Assembly: GCF_900177375.1 (NCBI RefSeq)
Contig: NZ_FWZU01000004.1
Span: 1 to 64,000, forward strand
DNA length: 64,000 nucleotides
DNA from: Desulfovibrio gilichinskyi
GTDB taxonomy: Bacteria > Desulfobacterota > Desulfovibrionia > Desulfovibrionales > Desulfovibrionaceae
Reading direction: 5' to 3'
Shown in pieces: positions 1 through 9,132 of the stretch (the stretch's first letter is position 1; each line of letters begins with the position of its first letter). The notes beneath the pieces were generated by a model. The model made no database searches. It worked only from the letters and a program-made list of their open reading frames with translations, and was not told the origin of the DNA. The translations under genes and the position numbers were made by a program.

Positions 1-2
1 TT

Positions 3-761
3 TTCTTTGCTACAAATCAGGTCGGCACAATTTTCATGGTTGCGGATGAAAGGGGTAATGAGGTAAAGCGAATTATAAATGATTCGTTTGGAAATCTATT
101 GCTCGATAGCGGAGTCAGTTTGGATATATGCTTAGGGTTTGCCGCAGGACTGGCAGATAAAGATACCGGACTTGTACACCTTGGATATCGTGAATACGAT
201 CCCGCAATCGGAAGATTCACCACACCCGACCCGCTAGGATTTGCGGGTGGTGACGTAGATGTTTACGGGTACTGTCTCGATGACCCGATTAATTTTCATG
301 ATCGGACGGGGCTTGCGGGGAAGAGTGAAGGGAAAGAAGACAAAAAGAATACTCTAGATGAAGACTCTAAAATAAAAAATTTACAACATGATACCCCAAA
401 AAAGACTGTTAAACATGCTGGATCAGGTATGGATTTAGAAAGCTCTGAAAAGATATCGCCAAAAGAAAAAACAAAACTTGAGCAAGATAATAAATCTAAA
501 TTTTCTCTCAAAGACCTTGGAAAAGGAGCTTTCAAAGGAATAAGATCCGGAATTCCAGCAGGAATGACTATTGGCAGCGCACTTGGGCCATTAGGAATAA
601 CAGCAGGAGCTATTACTGGCGGCTTTACGGGAGCATCAGTTGGCATGCTTTATTCAATAGGATCAAAAGCAATTTCTGACACATTCGGAATAGATGAAGA
701 TACTCAAAAAACTATTCGCAAGGCCATGGGGTATATGACCTCTAAAAAAGGGAAAAAATGA
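3..761 (+). CDS. RHS toxin C-terminal end with family A tip (5' end outside window)
   Basis: The frame is open from the window edge and reads FATNQVGTIFMVADERGN, the typical end of an RHS/YD-repeat shell, so the gene begins upstream. The RHS-associated core follows at about residues 50-95 (GYREYDPAIGRF, PDPLGFAGGDVDVYGY, INFHDRTGLAGK). Known RHS proteins are cleaved near this point to free the C-terminal toxin. The tip has a charged linker and then a Gly/Ala-rich hydrophobic stretch (GIRSGIPAGMTIGSALGPLG and onward) ending in SDTFGIDED. That is a glycine-zipper-like composition and suggests membrane insertion rather than an enzyme. No nuclease or deaminase motif is visible. The stop overlaps the next gene by 4 bases. 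The tip is homologous to the one at 6143-6688. Confidence 0.85.
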   Translation, partial: FFATNQVGTIFMVADERGNEVKRIINDSFGNLLLDSGVSLDICLGFAAGLADKDTGLVHLGYREYDPAIGRFTTPDPLGFAGGDVDVYGYCLDDPINFHDRTGLAGKSEGKEDKKNTLDEDSKIKNLQHDTPKKTVKHAGSGMDLESSEKISPKEKTKLEQDNKSKFSLKDLGKGAFKGIRSGIPAGMTIGSALGPLGITAGAITGGFTGASVGMLYSIGSKAISDTFGIDEDTQKTIRKAMGYMTSKKGKK

Positions 762-1048
762 TTAGTTATTTTATATCAGCAATATTAAGCGCTCTTATAA
801 TCACATGGTTATTTCGTTCTAAGAAATGTTTTTCATGCCCTAGATGTGGCGAGAGATTTGAAAGAATTCCCAATAGAGCTATGGGAATTACGTACTTGTT
901 GTTAGCAGTTGTGATGATTGTAACGGGTATAGTAAATGGGAGGAATTACCCTTCTGTATTTGATTATCTAGTTGGTTCTTCTGGAATTTATTATCTTCTT
1001 AAAAAAGAAAAAAAGAAGTGCCCCAAATGTAAAAATGAAATTGTTTAA
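758..1048 (+). CDS. small membrane protein with split CXXC knuckles, candidate immunity protein (family A)
   Basis: This 96-residue protein starts at an ATG overlapping the toxin stop by 4 bases, which implies translational coupling. It has an N-terminal membrane segment, a CPRCGERF knuckle at about residue 24, a hydrophobic hairpin at about residues 43-75 and a C-terminal CPKCKNEIV knuckle. The two CXXC pairs are on either side of the membrane hairpin, so a zinc site would have to form across it. Position directly behind an RHS tip and homology to the protein at 6681-6971, also directly behind a family A tip, support an immunity role. That role is inferred; I know no named family for it. Confidence 0.7.
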   Translation: MISYFISAILSALIITWLFRSKKCFSCPRCGERFERIPNRAMGITYLLLAVVMIVTGIVNGRNYPSVFDYLVGSSGIYYLLKKEKKKCPKCKNEIV

Positions 1049-1127
1049 TAGCATTAAATTATTTTTCCTTATTTTAAGAATAGCGAAGAATTATTTTTAT
1101 AACTAGATTGCGTATAATTTATTAACA

Positions 1128-1152
1128 GCCTCGACTTCGGTCGGGGCTTTCT
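1128..1152 (+). terminator. cassette terminator hairpin 1
   Basis: Stem 1128-1135 pairs with 1140-1147 around a TTCG loop closed by C-G, one of the extra-stable tetraloops. A TTTCTC tail follows. Nearly the same element closes the other cassettes at 2250, 4937, 6111 and 7051. Confidence 0.8.
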
Positions 1153-1166
1153 CGTATCAATCATTC

Positions 1167-1817
1167 CCACTCGGATTTGCTGGCGGAGACGTGGATGTTT
1201 ACGGCAATTGTCTTGATGATCCGGTTAATTTTCATGATCGGACGGGGCTTGCTGGGAAGAGTGAGGAGAAAGAGGAAGGAACTTTTTCTAAGATAGTCTC
1301 AGGATTATATGAGGCTGCTACTGCAATACCTAAAGGACTTGAAAAAACTGCTGATAAAAGTAGCGAAGGTATTAAAAAAGCGACAATCGAAGGTGGAAAA
1401 GCGGCTTCCAAGGCTATAGTGAAAGGAAGTCATGTAGCCAAAGAAACAATTGAAAAGGCTGCCGACGAGTTTTAAAATAATAAAGAATTGCAAAAATATA
1501 CCGGAATAGCTCTTGGGCTGGAGCAGTTCCTATTGCTTTAGCAGGAGGGGCGGCTGTAGCACCTGTAGTTGAAAGTATGATATCGCCTGTATGGGAGTAC
1601 TGCGAATGGAATAACTCGCAACGCTGTCGCTAAAATACTTAGCACTGCAAGTGGTGAAAAAATTGCCAAAAACACCTACGATTTTGTAACCGCTTTCAAT
1701 GCTGGAGAGCTACCCGCTCAAAGTTACGGAGGAGGCGCTGGAGGAATAATAGCTGGCTGGAAGGACCTACGAGATAATATAAAAAAAACGCATAACTATT
1801 TAATTAATAAAAATTGA
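1167..1817 (+). pseudogene. displaced RHS tip cassette, family B copy 1, broken
   Basis: It begins with a core remnant (PLGFAGGDVDVYGNCLDD) that has no RHS body upstream, so it is an orphan tip. Against the copy at 5005-5703 it has an AAA-to-TAA change giving a stop at 1473-1475, then one missing G in the GGGG run near 1515. Past these lesions homology resumes, for example FVTAFNAGELP and GGAGGIIAG near the end, and stops at TGA 1815-1817. The open part is an amphipathic Lys/Ala-rich helix region (GLEKTADKSSEGIKKA). It cannot be translated as one protein and looks like a decayed silent cassette. Confidence 0.8.
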
Positions 1818-1828
1818 TAATAAGAATA

Positions 1829-2239
1829 ATGAAAATAAAAAAAATCATTAAACATATTCAATGGCTTCCAATTTTTTTAGGGACAGTCATGGTGTTCGCA
1901 AGTAGAGCCTTTGATGGTTCCTTTATTGCACTCTTTCGAGGTGTTCCGCTTACAGGAATAACTCGATGGCTAATGACTATCACAGGAATATTTTTTATTT
2001 TTTATGGCCTTATATCTAAAGATGCCAGTAAAGAATTACAAGAAGCTACAGTCTGTCCTAAATGCCAAACGCCTTTCGGTGTTGGGCTTGGACTCGGCCT
2101 TGGTGTTAAGAAGGATTCCCAGCATGAATTTTGTCCTCAGTGTAAAGTTAAACTAGAACCGCTAAATGGTTTTTATAAAAGGCACCCAGAATTAAAAGAA
2201 ACTGAAATTGATACCTCAATGGAAGAGACCAAAGAATAA
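1829..2239 (+). CDS. membrane zinc-ribbon protein, candidate immunity protein (family B copy 1)
   Basis: About 136 residues from the ATG at 1829, chosen over a TTG at 1814 because the family member at 5706 starts at the matching residue. Two membrane segments (about residues 12-30 and 45-63) are followed by a cytosolic zinc-ribbon-like region: CPKCQTPFG, a Gly-rich loop, CPQCKVKLEPLNGFYKRHPEL. Proteins at 4508 and 5706 share this build. The gene remains open although its partner tip is broken, consistent with retained protection against sibling toxins. The immunity role is inferred from position only. Confidence 0.65.
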   Translation: MKIKKIIKHIQWLPIFLGTVMVFASRAFDGSFIALFRGVPLTGITRWLMTITGIFFIFYGLISKDASKELQEATVCPKCQTPFGVGLGLGLGVKKDSQHEFCPQCKVKLEPLNGFYKRHPELKETEIDTSMEETKE

Positions 2240-2249
2240 TTGAATCACA

Positions 2250-2275
2250 GCACCGACTTCTGTCGGGGCTTTCTC
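2250..2275 (+). terminator. cassette terminator hairpin 2 (degenerate)
   Basis: CCGAC at 2253-2257 pairs with GTCGG at 2262-2266 around TTCT, followed by GGCTTTCTC. The outer base pairs of the other copies are lost here, so the stem is shorter. Confidence 0.55.
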
Positions 2276-2282
2276 TTATCAA

Positions 2283-2852
2283 TTAATTTTCATGATCGGA
2301 CGGGGTTTGCTGGGAAGAGTGAGGGGGAAAGAGCAAGGAGTCCCTGCCAAAGTGATCAAAAGAACTGGGCGAGCCTTATGGGAAATAGGCAGTCTTGCTG
2401 GTAGATCCGGATTGAAACTAGCAGGGGATGCAGGCTACGAGGCTTTTAAAAAAATCAGCCCTCTGGCCCACCCTGAAACAAAGAATGAAGCTGCGAAGTA
2501 TGCCAAAAAAGTAATCCTTGGCGAAACATCTTTGGGACAGGAGCTTGTTAAATCAGGTCCGAAAATAGCCAAATCAACTAAAGAAGCTTGGAATAGCATG
2601 GTTGAAAAAGAAAAAGACGCTGAAAAGCATCAGAATGAAATCAACCATAAAGTTTACTCAGGCAAATGGAGTGATCTATACAGTAAAAACTCAACCCTTC
2701 GCAAACAACGAGCAAAGGCTATTCAGGATGCTGTGAGTCCATCTTTAAAGGGAATAGCTAAAGCCTATTTAGACACTCCTGATGATAGGGTCACGCCACT
2801 CACTAAGTATCTAGATAAATTAGATCAAGTTAGGCGTAAGGATCGTAAATAA
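2283..2852 (+). pseudogene. displaced RHS tip cassette, family C, frameshifted
   Basis: The cassette starts inside the RHS core at INFHDRTGFAGKSE. A G run at 2323-2327 has five Gs where the other cassettes have four, which shifts the core out of frame with the tip. After the shift the tip continues as GKEQGVPAKVIKRTGRALWE and stays open to 2852. It is hydrophilic and Lys-rich (HPETKNEAAKYAKK, KVYSGKWSDLYSKNSTLRKQ) and unlike families A and B. I do not recognise its activity. Without the extra G the core and tip would be one frame. It has no shell of its own. Confidence 0.7.
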
Positions 2853-2907
2853 ATTTAAAAAATCCTGCAGCAGCATTTTTGTGCTGTTGTAGGTATAACC
2901 TACTATT

Positions 2908-3597
2908 ATGATTTATTTAAAAAATATTTTTCCTGATTTTAAAAATATCGTTGCAAAAAATTATATTACCTTATTAATTTTTTGCTTATATTTAGCAGCA
3001 AGTTACCTAAATAGAGACTCTGGATATGGCGAGTATTATTTTTCGTGTCTAGCAATCTCTCTAGTACTGGTTAGAATAGGCGTGAAAGAAATGGATATTA
3101 AATTTTTAAGATTTAATGCCTTGTTTAGAGTTGTACTGGTATATTTTATACTCTTATTAGTTACAAAATTATCAATCAAAATTACGACCTTAATGAACTA
3201 TAATCTTATTAGTCTTAAAAGTTATATAGAGATTTTAATCCTTAAAATCAGACCTGAAATTGATTATAAATTTTATTTTGATGGTCCTTTCTTTGCCATA
3301 GCAGAAGCGTTTCTCTACTCGCTAATTTCACCTTTTATTTATTGCTTGGTGTGTCGGAGCTTTTCATTTAAAAAAATATTCTCAATATCAACTAAAGAAT
3401 TTTTATTAGGCATTATGGTATTCGTTTTTATAGGAATGACACTTGCTGTCTTTATTTTATCCACATTCGGACTTTTCGATTCATACATATATATTCCTAT
3501 TTTTTCATTATATTATGTAGTGCTTACGGTACTTTGCTATGTAGTTGGTAAGAATTCTTTTTCAGAAAATTATATAGAGCAAGATCTCGCACAATAA
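2908..3597 (+). CDS. polytopic membrane protein, candidate immunity protein (family C)
   Basis: A 229-residue, strongly hydrophobic, AT-rich gene with about six predicted membrane segments (for example YITLLIFCLYLAASYL, LFRVVLVYFILLLV, FLLGIMVFVFIGMTLAVFIL). There are no CXXC knuckles, unlike the other immunity candidates in the array. It follows the family C tip after 55 bases that include a short inverted repeat (CAGCAGCATTTTTGTGCTGTTG). No family is recognised. An immunity role for the adjacent tip is the natural inference from position. Confidence 0.5.
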   Translation: MIYLKNIFPDFKNIVAKNYITLLIFCLYLAASYLNRDSGYGEYYFSCLAISLVLVRIGVKEMDIKFLRFNALFRVVLVYFILLLVTKLSIKITTLMNYNLISLKSYIEILILKIRPEIDYKFYFDGPFFAIAEAFLYSLISPFIYCLVCRSFSFKKIFSISTKEFLLGIMVFVFIGMTLAVFILSTFGLFDSYIYIPIFSLYYVVLTVLCYVVGKNSFSENYIEQDLAQ

Positions 3598-3669
3598 GTA
3601 CTGACAATTAAATGTTAAAGATACTGATTGATGCAAGTGAACATTTGAGCTCTCAGCAGTATTTCATGA

Positions 3670-4473
3670 CAAGAATCTCAGCCCAACTTTTTAAGCGTCC
3701 ACGAATATTATCCTATTATCGGCAGATTCATCACACCCGATCCGCTTGGATTTGCGGGCGGAGACGTAGATGTTTACGGGTACTGTCTCGATGATCCTAT
3801 TAATTTTCATGATCGGACTAGGCTTGCAGGGAAGAGTGAGGGGAAAGAGCAAGGAACTTATTCTAAAATCGCCTCAGGATTACATAAAGCTGCGACTGCA
3901 ATACCTAAAGGACTTGAAAAGGCTGCTGATAAAAGTACTGAAGGTATTAAAAAAGCGACAACCGAAGGTGGAAAAGCTGCTTCCAAGGCTATTGTTAAGG
4001 GAAGTCATGCAGCCAAAGAAGCTGTAGGAAAGACTGCCGATGAGTTTAAAAATAATAAAGAATTGCAAAAATATACCGGAATAGCTCTTGGGTCTGGAGC
4101 AGTTCCTATTGCTTTAGCAGGAGGGGCGGCTATAGCTCCTGTAGTTTCAGATGCTGCAGCGTCTACTTTAACACAGATCGCAGAAGTTCCTATAGCGCAA
4201 ACAGCGTTAAATTTTGCAAAGGGGCTCAACCCTTTTAGTGGAGAAGCTCCAAATCCTAAGACACCGAGTGAAGCGGCAGGAATCATTGCTCCATATTTAA
4301 TTAAAGAATTTGATAAGTTAGGAGTTTGGGATAAAATTGGTGATCAGTATAATAAAAATTTAAAAACTAGATCAGACGAACATTTTAATTATGATAAAAA
4401 TAAAATATTACCTTCTCGAACTAGTGTTGGCAACCATCGCTCTAAACATCACAATAAGTCTTCTAAAATTTAA
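3670..4473 (+). CDS. displaced RHS tip cassette, family B copy 2, open but without a start codon
   Basis: The frame is open from a TGA at 3667 through a longer core remnant (HEYYPIIGRF, PDPLGFAGGDVDVYGYC, INFHDRTRLAGK) into the tip. I find no ATG, GTG or TTG in frame before the TTG at 4063, so it is probably not translated as a unit. The tip has the family B Lys/Ala-rich helix (GLEKAADKSTEGIKKA) and a hydrophobic Gly/Ala segment (YTGIALGSGAVPIALAGGAA). It then carries a C-terminal region of its own (AEVPIAQTALNFAKGLNPF ... RSKHHNKSSKI). The shared N-terminal half with a variable end is what tip swapping would give. Confidence 0.7.
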   Translation, partial: QESQPNFLSVHEYYPIIGRFITPDPLGFAGGDVDVYGYCLDDPINFHDRTRLAGKSEGKEQGTYSKIASGLHKAATAIPKGLEKAADKSTEGIKKATTEGGKAASKAIVKGSHAAKEAVGKTADEFKNNKELQKYTGIALGSGAVPIALAGGAAIAPVVSDAAASTLTQIAEVPIAQTALNFAKGLNPFSGEAPNPKTPSEAAGIIAPYLIKEFDKLGVWDKIGDQYNKNLKTRSDEHFNYDKNKILPSRTSVGNHRSKHHNKSSKI

Positions 4474-4507
4474 GTAATTGATTTGTTAGTATTCGGAAAA
4501 AGAAAAA

Positions 4508-4927
4508 ATGAAAAATAAAACAATTAAAAAAAAGAACTCTTCTGTTTTTATCAGGTTAGTTCTTTTCCTGGGTGGCATATATGGAATATTCGCAGCAGCT
4601 CCGTGGAATAAAGAAATAATTCTTTATCATCGGGGAGGATATCCAACTGACACAACCGCACGCTGGGCAATTACTGTTTTTTGCATCATCGCTATAGTAT
4701 ATGCAGTACTGGATAAATCCACTATAAAAGATAGGGGGCTTGGGCTTTATGAAGATCACATTTGCCCTAAATGTGAACGAGTCTTTCTTCGTGGTGAAAA
4801 GACAGAAGAAAATATATGTCCTGACTGCAAAGTTCTCTTGGAGCCTTTGGAAGGATTTTACGATCGCTATCCTGAATTAAAAAATGTTAAAGAAAAATTA
4901 CCTAAAAATCTAAAAGATTTTAAATAA
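4508..4927 (+). CDS. membrane zinc-ribbon protein, candidate immunity protein (family B copy 2)
   Basis: A 139-residue protein with two hydrophobic segments (FIRLVLFLGGIYGIFAAA and WAITVFCIIAIVYAVL) and a C-terminal CPKCERVF ... CPDCKVLLEPLEGFYDRYPEL zinc-ribbon. Spacing and the LEPL.GFY.R.PEL motif match the proteins at 1829 and 5706, but the N-terminal half differs, as expected if it tracks the divergent tip before it. It starts 34 bases after the tip and is closed by a terminator. Immunity is inferred. Confidence 0.65.
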   Translation: MKNKTIKKKNSSVFIRLVLFLGGIYGIFAAAPWNKEIILYHRGGYPTDTTARWAITVFCIIAIVYAVLDKSTIKDRGLGLYEDHICPKCERVFLRGEKTEENICPDCKVLLEPLEGFYDRYPELKNVKEKLPKNLKDFK

Positions 4928-4936
4928 GTTACATCT

Positions 4937-4961
4937 GCCCCGACTTCGGTCGGGGCTTTCT
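4937..4961 (+). terminator. cassette terminator hairpin 3
   Basis: A perfect 8-bp stem GCCCCGAC (4937-4944) / GTCGGGGC (4949-4956) with a TTCG loop and a TTTCTCTT tail. Confidence 0.85.
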
Positions 4962-5004
4962 CTTATCTATCACTCCCGTTCTGAGAGGTTTCGCAGGCTG
5001 AGAT

Positions 5005-5703
5005 GTGGACGTTTATGGATACTTCCTTGATGATCCTATTAATTTTCATGATCGGACGGGGTTTGCTGGGAAGAGTGAGGGGAAAGAGCAAGGAACTTAT
5101 TCTAAAATCGCCTCAGGATTACATAAAGCTGCTATTGCGATACCTAAAGGACTTGAGAAAACTGCTGATAAAAGTACTGAAGGTATTAAAAAAGCGACAA
5201 TCGAAGATGGAAAAGCGGCTTCCAAGGCTATAGTGAAAGGAAGTCATGTAGCCAAAGAAGCAATTGAAAAGGCTGCCGATGAGTTTAAAAACAATAAGGA
5301 ATTGCAAAAATATACCGGAATAGCTCTTGGGGCTGGAGCAGTTCCTATTGCTTTAGCAGGAGGGGCGGCTGTAGCTAGTACAGAAGCTGGAGCGGCTATT
5401 GGGGAAATGGCATATTCAACAGGGAAAAAAGCTCTTAAAGAATCAAAAACTATTTTTCGGGATGCAGAAAAAATTGGGAAAAAAGTTTTTAAGGCTTCTG
5501 ATAAAAAACTGTATCATGGATTAGATAAAATAGAACAAAGCGTTGGCACCGAAAACGTAAAAGATTTTATCTCAGCTTTTAATGCAGGAGAATTACCATC
5601 GGTAACAAGTTGGGGAGGAGGTATTGGAGGAATCCTTGCCGGTAAAGATGAATTGCACGAAAATACGAATAAACTTATTAAATATCTTAAATCAAAAAAA
5701 TAA
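5005..5703 (+). CDS. displaced RHS tip cassette, family B copy 3
   Basis: A core remnant from about 4973 has GGA changed to TGA (4997-4999), cutting it off from anything upstream. The first in-frame start afterwards is GTG 5005, giving 232 residues from VDVYGYFLDDPINFHDRTGF. The tip has the Lys/Ala helix (GLEKTADKSTEGIKKA), the hydrophobic YTGIALGAGAVPIALAGGAA segment and a C-terminal part ending FISAFNAGELPSV and GGIGGILAGKDELH. It is the least damaged family B copy and serves as reference for the lesions at 1167-1817. No ribosome binding site is evident, so expression is doubtful. Membrane activity is inferred from composition. Confidence 0.65.
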   Translation: MDVYGYFLDDPINFHDRTGFAGKSEGKEQGTYSKIASGLHKAAIAIPKGLEKTADKSTEGIKKATIEDGKAASKAIVKGSHVAKEAIEKAADEFKNNKELQKYTGIALGAGAVPIALAGGAAVASTEAGAAIGEMAYSTGKKALKESKTIFRDAEKIGKKVFKASDKKLYHGLDKIEQSVGTENVKDFISAFNAGELPSVTSWGGGIGGILAGKDELHENTNKLIKYLKSKK

Positions 5704-5705
5704 AT

Positions 5706-6104
5706 ATGAAAAAATATCTTAAAAAATTTAAGTGGGGACCTATTTTATTTGGAATAGTTGCAATCGAGGAAAGTCACCCCTTTTCCATGTCTTTTCCGAC
5801 TTATACAAGGGGAGTTTTGCTCAGCGAGAAAGCCCGTATAATAATGATTGTTGCAGGATTATTATGCATAATTTATGGTATTTTCTCCCAAAAGACCAAT
5901 AATGAATTACAAGAAGCTACAATCTGTCCTAAATGCCAAACGCCTTTCGGTGTTGGACTTGGCCTTGGTGTTAAGAAGGATTTCCAGCATGAATTTTGTC
6001 CTCAGTGTAAAGTTAAGTTAGAACCGCTAAATGGTTTTTATAAAAGGCACCCAGAATTAAAAAATGCTGAAATTAATACCTCAATAGAAGAGACCAAAGA
6101 ATAA
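5706..6104 (+). CDS. membrane zinc-ribbon protein, candidate immunity protein (family B copy 3)
   Basis: A 132-residue protein starting 2 bases after the family B tip stop. It has two membrane segments (about residues 10-26 and 44-62) and CPKCQTPFG ... CPQCKVKLEPLNGFYKRHPEL. The C-terminal 70 residues are almost identical to those at 1829-2239, while the membrane half differs. That split would fit specificity lying in the membrane half. This is the best-preserved tip/immunity pair among the displaced family B cassettes. Confidence 0.7.
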   Translation: MKKYLKKFKWGPILFGIVAIEESHPFSMSFPTYTRGVLLSEKARIIMIVAGLLCIIYGIFSQKTNNELQEATICPKCQTPFGVGLGLGVKKDFQHEFCPQCKVKLEPLNGFYKRHPELKNAEINTSIEETKE

Positions 6105-6110
6105 TTAATA

Positions 6111-6135
6111 GCCCCGACTTCGGTCGGGGCTTTCT
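6111..6135 (+). terminator. cassette terminator hairpin 4
   Basis: A perfect GCCCCGAC (6111-6118) / GTCGGGGC (6123-6130) stem with a TTCG loop and TTTCTCTT tail, 7 bases after the preceding stop. The next core remnant begins about 16 bases after the stem. Confidence 0.85.
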
Positions 6136-6142
6136 CTTATCT

Positions 6143-6688
6143 ATCACACCCGACCCGCTAGGATTTGCGGGTGGTGACGTAGATGTTTACGGGTACTGTC
6201 TCGATGATCCTATTAATTTTTATGATCGGACTGGGCTTGCAGGGAAGAGTGAGGGGAAAAACCACGAAGAAAGCAATCTAAATGTAGGTTCTGAAATAGA
6301 CGATAAGCATCATGAAACGGCAAACAAGCCAGTTAAACCTGAGGAGAATAAACGGAATTACGAAGAGTCAAAAAAAGCATTAGCAAAAGAAAAGCCAAAA
6401 CTTAAGCAAGATAATAAATCAAAATTTACTCTTAAAAACCTGAGAAAAAGTACTATCAAAGGGATTATGGCTGGAATTCCTATTGGTGCAACTGCAGGTA
6501 TTCCATTGGGACCATTAGGTGTTGTTGCAGGTGGAATTACAGGAGCGATTACAGGACCTTCAGTTGAAATGCTTTATGAAGTTGGCTCAAAAGTAATATC
6601 TGACACTTTCGGTATAGATGAAGATATACAAGAACAAATTCGTGACGCAATGGGGAATATAATTACTAAAAGGGAAAAACGTGATTAG
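6143..6688 (+). CDS. displaced RHS tip cassette, family A copy 2
   Basis: The frame is open from the core remnant (PDPLGFAGGDVDVYGYCLDD, INFYDRTGLAGKSEGK) to the stop at 6688. The first in-frame ATG is only at 6467, inside the hydrophobic part, so the whole cassette lacks a start. The tip is homologous to the end of the first gene: charged linker, KFTLKNLRKSTIKGIMAGIP, Gly-rich GPLGVVAGGITGAITGPS, then SDTFGIDED. The linker differs greatly from the first copy. It is best read as a promoterless donor that could replace the expressed tip by recombination through the core. Confidence 0.7.
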   Translation: MTPDPLGFAGGDVDVYGYCLDDPINFYDRTGLAGKSEGKNHEESNLNVGSEIDDKHHETANKPVKPEENKRNYEESKKALAKEKPKLKQDNKSKFTLKNLRKSTIKGIMAGIPIGATAGIPLGPLGVVAGGITGAITGPSVEMLYEVGSKVISDTFGIDEDIQEQIRDAMGNIITKREKRD

Positions 6689-6971
6689 CGACTTTATATT
6701 TATACTATTTGCTTGTTTTTTAACTATAGGTTTAATGCATTATAAAAAAAACATTATCTGTAACAACTGCGGTGAACGGTTTAAAGTAATACCAAATAAA
6801 TATATTGGAATAATGTGGGTGCTTTTATTTTGTGCAATGGCTCTAGATAATATTCTTAATTACAGCTGTAATTTCTCTATACTAGATTTTATAGTTGGCG
6901 CTTCTGGAGTTTATTACCTTCTTAAAAAAGATAAAAAGAAGTGCCCCAAATGTAAAAATGAAATTGTTTAA
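6681..6971 (+). CDS. small membrane protein with split CXXC knuckles, candidate immunity protein (family A copy 2)
   Basis: A 96-residue protein starting at GTG 6681, overlapping the tip stop. It matches the protein at 758-1048 in length and layout: membrane segment, CNNCGERFKVIPNK knuckle, hydrophobic hairpin (about residues 43-75), IVGASGVYYLLKK, C-terminal CPKCKNEIV. The final 20 or so residues and the next 110 bases are almost identical to the first copy, whereas the membrane hairpin has diverged, consistent with cognate specificity in the membrane part. Confidence 0.7.
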   Translation: MISDFIFILFACFLTIGLMHYKKNIICNNCGERFKVIPNKYIGIMWVLLFCAMALDNILNYSCNFSILDFIVGASGVYYLLKKDKKKCPKCKNEIV

Positions 6972-7050
6972 TAGAATTAAATTATCTTTTCTTATTTTAA
7001 GAATAGCGAAGAATTGTTTTTATAACTAGATTGCGTATAATTTATTAACA

Positions 7051-7075
7051 GCCTCGACTTCTGTCGGGGCTTTCC
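7051..7075 (+). terminator. cassette terminator hairpin 5, end of array
   Basis: GCCTCGAC (7051-7058) / GTCGGGGC (7063-7070) with a TTCT loop and one T-G wobble, then CTTTCC. It ends the array and lies 9 bases before the stop of the opposing MocR gene. Confidence 0.75.
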
Positions 7076-7083
7076 ATTATCTA

Positions 7084-8451
7084 TCACACCAGCCCCTTTC
7101 GCAAAATCTCCAGTAAAATATTGAGTCCTTGTAACAGCTCATCTGTCGTACGCGTCCCGCTGAGTGAAATCCTTGCCATTGCAGGCACAACGCTATCACC
7201 CACTGCAAATTTCTCAGCACCGAATATATTAACTCCTGACTCACGGGCGCGAGCTTCAAAAGTATATCCACGCCATGGCTCAGGCAATTGAAGCCAGATG
7301 AAAAGCCCCGTGGGCTTACCAAAGTAAGTAAGTCCAGAAAGTAAATCTTTAATCACTGAAAACCTTTTCTCGGCTTCATTCTGCTTAAGTTTGATAACTC
7401 TGTCTGCGGTTCCGTCCTTTATCCATTCTGTAGCAAGCTCTGCATTAAGTGGTGGAGTCATCCAGACTGTATTTAAAATTGCATGGGACAGTTTGTCCCG
7501 CAGACTTTTAGGGGAAGACATAAAAGCCACCCGTAATCCAACAGCCAGTGACTTGGAAAGCCCTGCAATGTGGACACTGTTTTCAGGTGCCAAGGAAGAA
7601 ACAGGCGACAGCGAACTCTGTACGGTCAAAGCATAGGCATCGTCTTCAATAATGATAAGACCGTGTTTGCGTGCGATTAAAGCAATTGTTTCACGACGGA
7701 AAGCAGACATACACGCCGTAGTCGGATTCTGGAATTCAGGCATAAGATAAAGCCCGGTAATTTTCTCTCTGCGACAGACAGCATCCAGCGCATCAGGGAG
7801 CATGCCTTCCTTATCCATTGCAACAGGAACTAACCGGATGCCGAGCATCGCTGCCAGAGTCTTCAAACCCGGGTAAATAAGTGAATCAGTAGCAATACGA
7901 TCCCCGGCACGAAACAATCCCGTCAGGCAACAGGTAAGCGCGTGCTGCGCCCCTGAACAAATTAGAACATCGTCAGGAGTGACTTCAAACCTGTACCGCT
8001 TGCACCACTCAGCCCCAATCGCTCGATGTTCAGGCAACCCGCGCGGATCTGTATACCGCATAAATACATTTGAATTTTTCCTGCGGATAAGCCTTTTCAT
8101 CCCTTCCTGAATATCAGGGTCCAGCTCATAAAAGCTGTTAGCAGGGCCGAGTTCAATTAGACCGGGAGCATGAGGTTCAAACGAAACCATGGATGAAGAA
8201 ACCCGCGCGTCCGAAGCCACAAATGTTCCGCGCCCGACTGTTCCGGATATCAACCCGCGACGCTCAGCCTCTACATAACCGCGGGTAACCGTACTTACAT
8301 TTATCTCAAGCTCATCAGCAAGTTCGCGATGCGTGGGGAGTTTATCACCCGGTTTAAGCTTACCGGAAAAAATATCACGCTCAATAGCATCAGCCAACGC
8401 GCGAAACTTCGGACCTTCTTCGCCTTCTAATATGGGATTCCATTTTGTCAT
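7084..8451 (-). CDS. MocR-type GntR regulator with aminotransferase domain
   Basis: About 455 residues from the ATG at 8451 (MTKWNPILEGEEG); an upstream frame to 8487 would run through the operator repeats. The N-terminal winged helix is of GntR type (KLPTHRELADELEINVSTVTRGYVEAERR) and the rest is a fold-type I PLP domain with YTDPRGLPEHR, PEFQNPT, IIEDDAYA and the PLP lysine in AGLSKSL. MocR proteins sense an amine or PLP-linked ligand and control a neighbouring gene. Here the divergent neighbour is a LysE exporter, so an amino-acid efflux switch is likely. The gene ends just beyond the RHS array. Confidence 0.85.
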   Translation of the reverse strand: MTKWNPILEGEEGPKFRALADAIERDIFSGKLKPGDKLPTHRELADELEINVSTVTRGYVEAERRGLISGTVGRGTFVASDARVSSSMVSFEPHAPGLIELGPANSFYELDPDIQEGMKRLIRRKNSNVFMRYTDPRGLPEHRAIGAEWCKRYRFEVTPDDVLICSGAQHALTCCLTGLFRAGDRIATDSLIYPGLKTLAAMLGIRLVPVAMDKEGMLPDALDAVCRREKITGLYLMPEFQNPTTACMSAFRRETIALIARKHGLIIIEDDAYALTVQSSLSPVSSLAPENSVHIAGLSKSLAVGLRVAFMSSPKSLRDKLSHAILNTVWMTPPLNAELATEWIKDGTADRVIKLKQNEAEKRFSVIKDLLSGLTYFGKPTGLFIWLQLPEPWRGYTFEARARESGVNIFGAEKFAVGDSVVPAMARISLSGTRTTDELLQGLNILLEILRKGLV

Positions 8452-8502
8452 GCATACAATAATTCCATTGACTGCATACAATGTCAAGAATACCTATACA
8501 AT
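8451..8502. promoter_or_regulatory. three direct repeats between mocR-type gene and lysE, likely operator
   Basis: TGCATACAAT occurs at 8451-8460 and again at 8473-8482, and a variant CCTATACAAT at 8493-8502. The centre spacings of 22 and 20 bases are about two helical turns, so all sites face one side. MocR regulators are known to bind direct repeats. The first copy touches the regulator start codon, which fits autoregulation. Confidence 0.6.
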
Positions 8503-8541
8503 CATAAAAATTACACCACACAATTAATACAGGAAAATATT

Positions 8542-9132
8542 ATGCATGATCACTATTGGCCTTTTTTACTCTTTGTCATTGTCATGACCGGAACACCCGG
8601 ACCGGGCAATCTGGCGATGCTGGCACTCGGGCAAACCGTAGGTTTCAAGAAATCCATACCTTTCCTGATAGGAATGGTTACAGGCGCCACAGCCGTGGGA
8701 TTGCTTGTTTCTTTGGGTCTTGGAGAACTATATATTAATTCACCGCGTACTGCCTCGGTTTTTAAAATTGTAAGTATCGCATATATCCTTTACCTTGCAT
8801 TAAAAGTAATGCGAATGAACGTACAGCCGCCGGAACAGGTTAAACCGTTCACGATATACGACGGGCTTATGCTCCATCCGCTTAACCCTAAAGCATGGGC
8901 AATGAGCATCTCAGCATTCAGTCAGTTTGCAGACCCTACCGCCCCTCGCTTTTTTGAAATCAGCGTATTTGTGCTGACATTTACCTATATGGGTGTATTA
9001 TCTCACAGCTTTTGGGGGCTGACCGGATCATCACTGCTTCGCATAATGCGCGCACCTAAACTCAGATTATGCCTTAACACTTCAATGGTGGTGCTTATGG
9101 TCGGGGCAACTTTATACGCTCTCTATAACTAA
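8542..9132 (+). CDS. LysE/RhtB family amino-acid exporter
   Basis: A 196-residue membrane protein with the family N-terminus VMTGTPGPGNLAMLALGQTVG, then GMVTGATAVGLLVSLGLGEL and the LHPLNPKAWAMSISAFSQF region, with about six hydrophobic segments. It starts at ATG 8542 with AGGAAA upstream. The family exports amino acids such as lysine, threonine, homoserine or cysteine; the substrate is not evident from sequence. The divergent MocR gene and the three operator-like repeats indicate specific control. Confidence 0.85.
   Translation: MHDHYWPFLLFVIVMTGTPGPGNLAMLALGQTVGFKKSIPFLIGMVTGATAVGLLVSLGLGELYINSPRTASVFKIVSIAYILYLALKVMRMNVQPPEQVKPFTIYDGLMLHPLNPKAWAMSISAFSQFADPTAPRFFEISVFVLTFTYMGVLSHSFWGLTGSSLLRIMRAPKLRLCLNTSMVVLMVGATLYALYN

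Follow-up and report, generated by a model that had tools for sequence, protein, structure and literature searches.

A probable store of displaced toxin-immunity units and a chimeric immunity gene at an RHS locus of Desulfovibrio gilichinskyi

An array of RHS core copies, each followed by a variable tip and an immunity gene, opens a contig of Desulfovibrio gilichinskyi and is the subject of this report. The window is the whole 64,000-nucleotide (nt) stretch that was analysed; its positions 1-7083, which hold the array, are bases 1-7083 of contig C4 of the source genome (G000; 3.96 Mb in 14 contigs). A profile search matched Rhs_assc_core (TIGR03696, 67 bits) at 3-758, so that an RHS core with a variable C-terminal tip heads the locus. 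Six units follow one another in the same direction, A (attached), B1, C, B2, B3 and A', and then comes a MocR-like gene. The five downstream units repeat the core end and continue with other tips and immunity genes. Core copies start at 3, ~1164, 2282, 3691, 4972 and 6146, one per unit, the displaced copies beginning at core residues 22, 41, ~5, 19 and 19 of a 57 amino acid (aa) query. Hairpins at 1128, 2250, 4937, 6111 and 7051 close A, B1, B2, B3 and A'. A first-pass annotation of this DNA had described the order A-B-C-B-B-A, an RHS core copy at the front of every unit and a UUCG/UUCU hairpin at the end of five. All three descriptions hold: six core copies and five hairpins were found, unit C having none, the A pair is related and not identical, and the B units share 300 nt only. 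The right-hand gene (7084..8487) was named from our own reading, and we take it to be MocR/GntR-like. The features are listed below; G005, G006 and G009, here and later, are genomes of sister species.

3..338, + strand: RHS core 3' end of the first (attached) unit; TIGR03696 core match; the contig starts here
339..761, + strand: tip A, the attached putative toxin end, GxxxG-rich; open to the stop at 761; no named toxin family matched
758..1048, + strand: immunity A, a chimera of 96 aa with CxxC pairs and two hydrophobic segments
1009..1014, strand not applicable: mapped crossover, A-type to the left and A'-type to the right; 258 informative sites
1128..1151, + strand: hairpin 1 (UUCG), terminator-like; no call in the terminator scan
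1164..1274, + strand: core front of unit B1
1275..1819, + strand: tip B1, broken; stops interrupt the frame in translation
1820..2239, + strand: immunity B1, frame open here and broken in G009, tail HPELK...EETKE
2250..2273, + strand: hairpin 2 (UUCU)
2282..2329, + strand: core front of unit C, the shortest of all
2330..2852, + strand: tip C, out of frame with its own core front
2908..3597, + strand: immunity C, 229 aa with five hydrophobic segments, not followed by a hairpin
3691..3849, + strand: core front of unit B2
3850..4473, + strand: tip B2, open frame; belongs to the family that follows the first core at the orthologous locus of G005
4508..4927, + strand: immunity B2, 139 aa
4937..4960, + strand: hairpin 3 (UUCG), joined to core residue 19
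4972..5088, + strand: core front of unit B3, with one internal stop codon
5089..5703, + strand: tip B3
5706..6104, + strand: immunity B3; identity to immunity B1 is 83-94% in the 3' part and 42-52% in the 5' part
6111..6134, + strand: hairpin 4 (UUCG), joined to core residue 19
6146..6259, + strand: core front of unit A'; 86.6% identical to the A' core front of G009, 93-94% to three other cores of its own genome
6260..6688, + strand: tip A', open frame, 97.0% nt identity to the G009 A' tip
6681..6971, + strand: immunity A', 96 aa
7051..7074, + strand: hairpin 5 (UUCU), abutting the 3' end of the MocR-like gene; no call in the terminator scan
7084..8487, - strand: MocR/GntR-like regulator gene, the right flank used for orthology; matched at 65-100% identity in 15/17 genomes of the genus

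Units A and A' are 52-84% identical per 50-nt window over 471-970 and 90-98% identical over 971-1120. The B units have a 300-nt stretch in common, made up of the core front and a pre-toxin part (B1 84% and B3 87% identical to B2), and are unlike in the toxin end and the immunity body. The front of unit C (2282-2789) has a 95% match elsewhere in the same genome, at C4:268k, in the core end and tip attached there. Immunity frames are open in 6/6 units. Decay is seen in other parts of the units: the toxin part of B1 is broken, the core of B3 has a stop, and the core and tip of C are out of frame, while B2 and A' are open.

The attached A unit was compared with the A and A' units of G009, both displaced there, in 50-nt windows. 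Identity to G009 A was 96-100% over 471-970 and 92% in 971-1020, then dropped to 62% and finally 33% before the hairpin. Against A', whether that of G000 or that of G009, identity was 52-84% over 471-970 and 82-98% over 971-1170. G009 A lacks roughly 80-100 nt around 371-460. The crossover was mapped with the 258 sites that distinguish A from A' in G009 and at which G000 A agrees with one of the two. To the left of 1009-1014, G000 A has the A-type letter at 198/203 sites, and to the right at 11/55. The maximum chi-square was 169, and 0/2000 permutations were as strong (largest 25). As a control, G000 A' was A-type at 16/252 sites. The attached A unit of G000 is thus a chimera with an A front and an A'-type back, and its breakpoint falls within the immunity gene, over 100 nt short of the hairpin. 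The A'-type likeness extends through the non-coding stretch from stop to hairpin (~80 nt), where G000 A and A' are 94-98% identical and G009 A falls to 33-62%.

Two histories of the chimera fit equally well: a deletion between neighbouring A and A' units, or an incoming A that replaced an attached A' by crossing over once in the core and once in the immunity gene. Either way, the back block must have recombined. In G009 the order is A, A', B1, and in G000 the chimera is followed by B1. The joint into B1 carries a CCCACT variant in both, after the chimera in G000 and after A' in G009; the variant also occurs at one joint of G009 contig C9, so it supports this history weakly. An open A' persists in G000 beside the chimera, and deletion or replacement fits as well as one-way copying. 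A breakpoint in the immunity gene suggests that exchange can use the core in front and the back block behind, and for the A units constant blocks are present on both sides of the variable segment, as core front and back block, an arrangement that silent-cassette gene conversion of the pilin/vls type also has. The terminator had been proposed in the first-pass annotation as a second homology block for exchange. Homology at the back exists; the block is larger than a terminator, consisting of the immunity 3' end and the hairpin. The breakpoints expected at core and terminator were likewise found on the core side and at the back, the sole mapped crossover (1009-1014) lying in the immunity gene and not in the terminator.

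The back block was examined in other immunity genes. Eight immunity regions, one of them broken (G009 B1), gave 28 pairs. Close to the 3' end, a single block of 60 columns was 82-95% identical in 15/28 pairs. In 14 of these 15 the identity was much lower upstream, with a step whose position varies; the exception was G000 B1 versus G009 B1. Tails and bodies were then counted over 21 sources in six genomes, using hairpins with up to 4 mismatches and open reading frames (ORFs) of 80-170 aa before the hairpin. Thirty-one immunity proteins were kept, 6/37 ORFs with none of four tail motifs being dropped, and same-family pairs with enough aligned residues were scored (161/171 possible pairs in the zinc-ribbon family). 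Tail identity exceeded body identity in 151/161 zinc-ribbon pairs, 15/15 pairs of the second family, 4/6 of the A family and 1/1 of the fourth. Tails at least 60% identical with bodies below 40% were found in 34, 5, 2 and 0 pairs, respectively; the reverse, bodies at least 60% with tails below 40%, was found in 0 pairs in each family. A defined format of core, tip, immunity and terminator, as first annotated, stands in its six core fronts and five hairpins and is amended at the back, where the constant block takes in the immunity 3' end and unit C goes without a hairpin.

Core fronts and tips differ in how closely they match between G000 and G009. The A' tips are 97.0% identical and their core fronts 86.6%; the A tips are 96.8% identical over aligned columns and their core fronts 84.0%. 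Among 21 core fronts from the two genomes, the nearest relative was in the same genome for 15/21 (one tie). This mismatch, together with the relationships of the core fronts, suggests that cores and tips have partly separate histories.

The locus was followed through the genus by way of the MocR-like gene, with one genome per species. RHS neighbours on the MocR side were an array in G009 and one RHS unit plus a core fragment in G005. G006 has the hairpin beside its MocR-like gene and no core there among the matches listed; in the other genomes of the genus no RHS was found in the 200 nt left of the MocR-like gene nor among the core matches listed. The unit order is A, B1, C, B2, B3, A', MocR in G000 and X, C2, A, A', B1, MocR in G009. 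The G009 orthologue, on contig C7, has an open RHS frame of 751 aa that runs to the contig edge. The tip after the first core is A in G000, X in G009 and of the B2 family in G005, where the likeness includes the immunity gene (75% over 1151 nt). Tip A is accordingly attached in G000 and displaced in G009, and the B2 family is first in G005 and displaced in G000. The first-pass annotation had suggested a comparison for swapped tips at the first gene; between species, three species gave three tips. One tip everywhere, with breakpoints unrelated to the shared blocks, is not the pattern that this comparison shows.

Two other loci give the same picture. Unit C2 (90.4% over 1537 nt) is attached at G000 C4:268k and displaced, its downstream joint included, at the MocR locus of G009. 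At another pair of orthologous loci, G000 C4:242k and G009 C9, the 5-kb left flanks are 89.7% identical, and beyond its last core copy G000 C4:242k keeps a 136-nt remnant (94%) of the tip end and immunity start that are attached in G009. Between species, tips displaced in one genome and attached in another thus comprise A and the B2 family at the MocR locus, and C2 and one further tip at the two other loci. Some of the RHS frames are short (282 aa at C4:242k in G000, 352 aa in G005), and at those loci 'attached' means 'after the first core' and is no proof of a working RHS gene.

The tips diverge far less than their flanks. Synonymous divergence (dS) between G000 and G009 was 0.78 for the MocR-like gene, 1.79 for a LysE-like gene and 0.49 for the core end. 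It was 0.071 for tip A (438-758, 97.8% nt identity to the displaced A of G009), 0.018 for the front of immunity A, 0.095 for immunity A' and 0.022 for tip A' alone. Of a neighbouring 20-kb stretch, ~7 kb aligned on G009 C7 in six pieces that were 82-92% identical. Since tip dS is far below that of the flanking genes, the tips would have been shared long after the species split. The ratio of nonsynonymous divergence (dN) to dS was 0.12-0.23 for tip A, depending on which of two stretches was chosen, 0 for the front of immunity A (one change in all) and 0.42 for immunity A'. Tip A', displaced in both species, has 2 synonymous and 11 nonsynonymous changes (dN 0.034), and with these counts it appears to show no sign of constraint.

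The junctions between a hairpin and the next core were also compared. In 8/15 the core begins at residue 19 after a 17-18 nt spacer of near-identical sequence: two in the window, three in G009 C7 and three in G009 C9, that is, at three loci in two species. A ninth joint at residue 19, on contig C6, was seen by eye. The other 7/15 joints lie at residue 23 (twice, C4:242k), 22 and 41 (window), and 14, 9 and 11 (G005). Unit C2, common to G000 C4:268k and the MocR locus of G009, has another kind of joint. The joints seem to be inherited with the cassettes and shared between loci, which would follow if each unit brought its own end along, for instance as a circle crossing over in the core. The spacer TTATCTATCACACC may have arisen from the flank on the MocR side (TTATCTATCACACCAG in G000) by microhomology with the core; since G009, G005 and G006 have other flanks there, this origin stays a guess.

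The reading that we favour, with a probability of roughly 0.7, is an RHS polymorphic-toxin gene end followed by a store of displaced units, with tips moved by homologous recombination at two places, the core and the back block. Four observations carry it: the unit format, the different tips at one locus across species, the one chimera with its mapped crossover, and the repeated joints. Each unit would consist of a constant core front, a variable toxin tip and immunity front, and a constant immunity tail, hairpin and short joint. By recombination in these two blocks the RHS gene would gain and lose tips, and tips would also pass from one RHS locus or species to another. If a circle or a tandem copy crossed over in the core alone, the old unit would be displaced downstream. 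A pair of crossovers, one in the core and one in the back block, would swap the variable part in place and leave a chimeric immunity gene. The end joint carried by each unit would then be a travelling scar of an earlier join of hairpin or flank to core. RecA-type recombination and the existence of circles are presumed in this scheme. The displaced units are presumably silent; promoter-like sites numbered 24 in the whole of 1-9000 against a mean of 22.9 in shuffles.

Several results weigh against this reading. With one genome per species, the comparison is between species and shows no swap within any of them. Base 1 of contig C4 falls inside the RHS core, and the start of the RHS gene is outside the contig. 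Unit C (2282-3597) has no hairpin. The remaining 13/28 immunity pairs, all with B2 or with the first C4:242k unit, are 55-68% identical in the block where the others reach 82-95%, and conservation of the tails may partly be functional constraint. Six of the 21 core fronts, those of B3 and C4:268k among them, are nearest to one of the other genome. Two of the four inner window joints depart from residue 19. The chimera is one event, which replacement and an internal deletion between A and A' in the G009 order explain equally. Immunity B1 is broken in G009. A strict age order along the array found no support: B1, the second unit, is broken and A', the last, is open, with no steady decay over distance. 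No plasmid match was found for tip A DNA or for immunity A, no phage or plasmid match for immunity B3, and no viral-contig match for the A core-plus-tip protein. An episomal reservoir was dropped as a candidate on these searches, which covered parts of the A unit and immunity B3; circles are still compatible with them.

How far the hairpin belongs to exchange bears on the likeliest alternative. The hairpin pattern (CCCCGACTTCGGTCGGGGC, 19 nt, up to 3 mismatches) has nine copies in the 3.96 Mb G000 genome, and the reversed pattern, used as control, has none. Five are in the window, two at C4:240-241k, one at C1:179.6k and one at C6:1.5k, and all nine (9/9) sit in RHS loci. Across 17 genomes of the genus there were 52 matches in 15 genomes, compared with 15 control matches; 18 matches in 6 genomes were exact. 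Outside G000 (G007, G013 and G005), the hairpin is also found behind toxin/immunity pairs or lone immunity genes with no adjoining core among the matches listed, and it therefore seems to belong to the 3' end of the immunity gene, from which RHS arrays would have inherited it, and not to RHS arrays alone.

Examples are as follows. Loci L143, L149 and L150 (G013, G007) hold toxin/immunity pairs with alike immunity tails and the same hairpin, and no adjoining RHS core among the matches listed. L145 has such a pair and hairpin at a contig start, where a core could be cut off by the contig edge. Apparently lone zinc-ribbon immunity genes with the same hairpin lie beside unrelated genes at L151, L147 and L153, and another, at L146, lies ~1.5 kb from a weak core match.

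Occurrence of the hairpin away from RHS cores, among the matches listed, is what would be seen if tips were displaced sequentially as in enterobacteria, by single core crossovers, with the hairpins as passengers of the immunity genes that play no role in exchange. Jackson 2009 (PMC2935791), in the part available, attributes core fragments to circles and one crossover in the core, and the differing histories of core and tip are as a core crossover predicts. Sequential displacement does not predict a crossover inside an immunity gene, the rise in identity inside immunity genes in 14/28 pairs, or one hairpin behind four kinds of immunity tail. We regard it as unlikely and still deserving of serious weight.

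A second alternative is that immunity tails and hairpins are alike through selection, for a zinc-ribbon fold and for termination, and not through recombination. The tails do carry a shared motif within each family, and the hairpin is a plausible terminator by its predicted folding. Folding energies of the five window hairpins are -11.4 to -18.3 kcal/mol, compared with -8.0 at the 1% point for 1000 random 24-mers drawn from the array, and a terminator scan called 3/5 on the + strand. Selection fits poorly with a likeness of 94-98% between G000 A and A' that runs on through the ~80 nt from stop to hairpin, where G009 A has 33-62%, and with the switch from A-type to A'-type in one step. This explanation is quite improbable.

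The U-tracts of the hairpins vary. They are interrupted in all five window copies, the outermost included (TTTCTCTT, TTTCTCGT, TTTCCATT), and long in hairpins of other loci and species, for example L013 (tail CTTTTTTTT), L049 and L052. The idea that only inner hairpins have interrupted tracts was ruled out. The outermost window copy is interrupted and the G005 copies that precede a core have long tracts, so the type of tract goes by locus or species. The first-pass annotation had also proposed that the terminators isolate silent cassettes from read-through; termination is plausible, and insulation is a hypothetical role for the window copies.

A very improbable third alternative is an assembly artefact, in which contig ends at RHS repeats and mis-joined units would have produced a false order or a false chimera. 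Contigs C4 and C6 do open at the same RHS core position (94% over 340 nt); the cores upstream of C4:1 and C6:1 are thus probably unresolved repeats, with the start of the RHS gene missing from C4. The A'-type 3' end of unit A, however, matches the A' unit at only 91% over 211 nt, so the two are not the same DNA joined twice, and the CCCACT variant at the joint into B1 is common to the A'-B1 joint of G009 (and one G009 C9 joint). Site-specific, integron-like insertion with the hairpin or the residue-19 joint as attachment site would account for the same joint at 8/15 junctions and for a hairpin at the end of 5/6 units, and is scarcely credible given that the crossover maps in the immunity gene more than 100 nt upstream of the hairpin, that joints vary (7/15 at residues 9, 11, 14, 22, 23 twice and 41) and that the residue-19 joints share spacer and hairpin sequence, which common descent explains. 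Insertion at the hairpin itself was ruled out on the same two grounds, the upstream crossover and the differing joints.

Much of the favoured scheme of core and back-block recombination has precedents, described here from the parts of each paper that were available. Jackson 2009 (PMC2935791) reported displaced RHS tips in Enterobacteriaceae, with a core followed by core-plus-tip fragments of varying core length and with tips attached in one strain and dissociated in another, and accounted for the core fragments by a circle and a single core crossover. That account names no 3' homology, and its main text has 'terminator' 0 times; the back block, the repeated joints and the immunity chimera are added here. 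In Salmonella, homologous recombination in the core shared by main and orphan rhs genes puts an orphan toxin on the main gene (Koskiniemi 2014, PMC3967940); the exchange is core-sided (522 bp) and is proposed to come after a duplication of the locus, and 'terminator' occurs 0 times in the main text. Type VI secretion system (T6SS) effector-immunity arrays of Vibrio cholerae show homologous replacement, displacement and retained immunity genes, and one transferred region takes in part of an immunity gene at its downstream edge (Kirchberger 2017, PMC5361080). Unlike the present array, they are described with no RHS core front or common hairpin, again with 'terminator' 0 times in the main text. 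In Neisseria, a full-length MafB toxin gene is followed by cassettes of a C-terminal toxin end and immunity gene, some without a start codon, and the same end is attached in one strain and a cassette in another (Jamet 2015, PMC4287609). The carrier differs, no shared hairpin is described, and 'terminator' is found 0 times in the main text. Judged by titles, none of the literature found mentions an immunity tail or a terminator common to RHS cassettes, and none on Desulfovibrio rhs, immunity or type VI secretion concerns this subject. As far as they were available, such sources already describe displaced tips, exchange driven by the core, circles, the retention of immunity genes and homologous replacement. 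The shared back adaptor, the heritable joints and the immunity chimera are what is added here.

A further step, which we put forward tentatively and with somewhat less than even confidence, is that the units have a two-sided plug-in format. The immunity gene would consist of a swappable specificity part and a constant tail, and tail and hairpin together would form a common back adaptor. With homology at both ends, an RHS tip would be exchanged where it stands, and every exchange would give a working chimeric immunity protein; like adaptors would serve immunity families of unlike body across the genus, and the joints would be heritable scars recording the source locus of a cassette. A second homologous end would make replacement in place possible, change of RHS tips being otherwise explained, in the literature available, by homology on the core side. 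From sequence alone, the joints would let cassettes be followed as they move between loci and species. With the natural A chimera, the part of the immunity protein that carries specificity can be tested for directly.

The tips presumably poison rivals. No named toxin family was matched in Pfam or NCBIfam; Keratin_2_head, Elongin_A and ispZ hits were below the curated cut-offs and were taken as composition. The immunity proteins have one to five hydrophobic segments, and tips B2 and B3 have one. Tips A and A' have GxxxG repeats. These repeats and the membrane-type immunity proteins resemble the glycine-zipper motif of contact-dependent inhibition (CDI) ionophore toxins and their small two-helix membrane immunity proteins (PMC11630599, in the part available), and on this likeness A and A' are predicted to be membrane-acting toxins, possibly working by insertion into the membrane. 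Delivery by type VI secretion is assumed. One T6SS gene is present, PF05936 (T6SS_VasE), which we take to be TssK.

Three minor observations concern borders and ends of units. A block of as much as 508 nt (2282-2789; L011, L044) is common to tip C and other tips, and the matches at G000 C4:268k, G009 C7, G006 C21 and G005 C2 all end at window base 2789, a second internal module border. Two units on contig C6 (L012 2400-2500 and 3480-3560) end in different hairpins (GCCCCGCA...TGCGGGGC) where the common hairpin otherwise sits. A second hairpin element, CCGGACATGACTCGGCTTATTCATGTCCGG, has nine copies in G000 with up to 3 mismatches (for example C1:179604-179633), some at the edges of RHS loci and two at contig starts.

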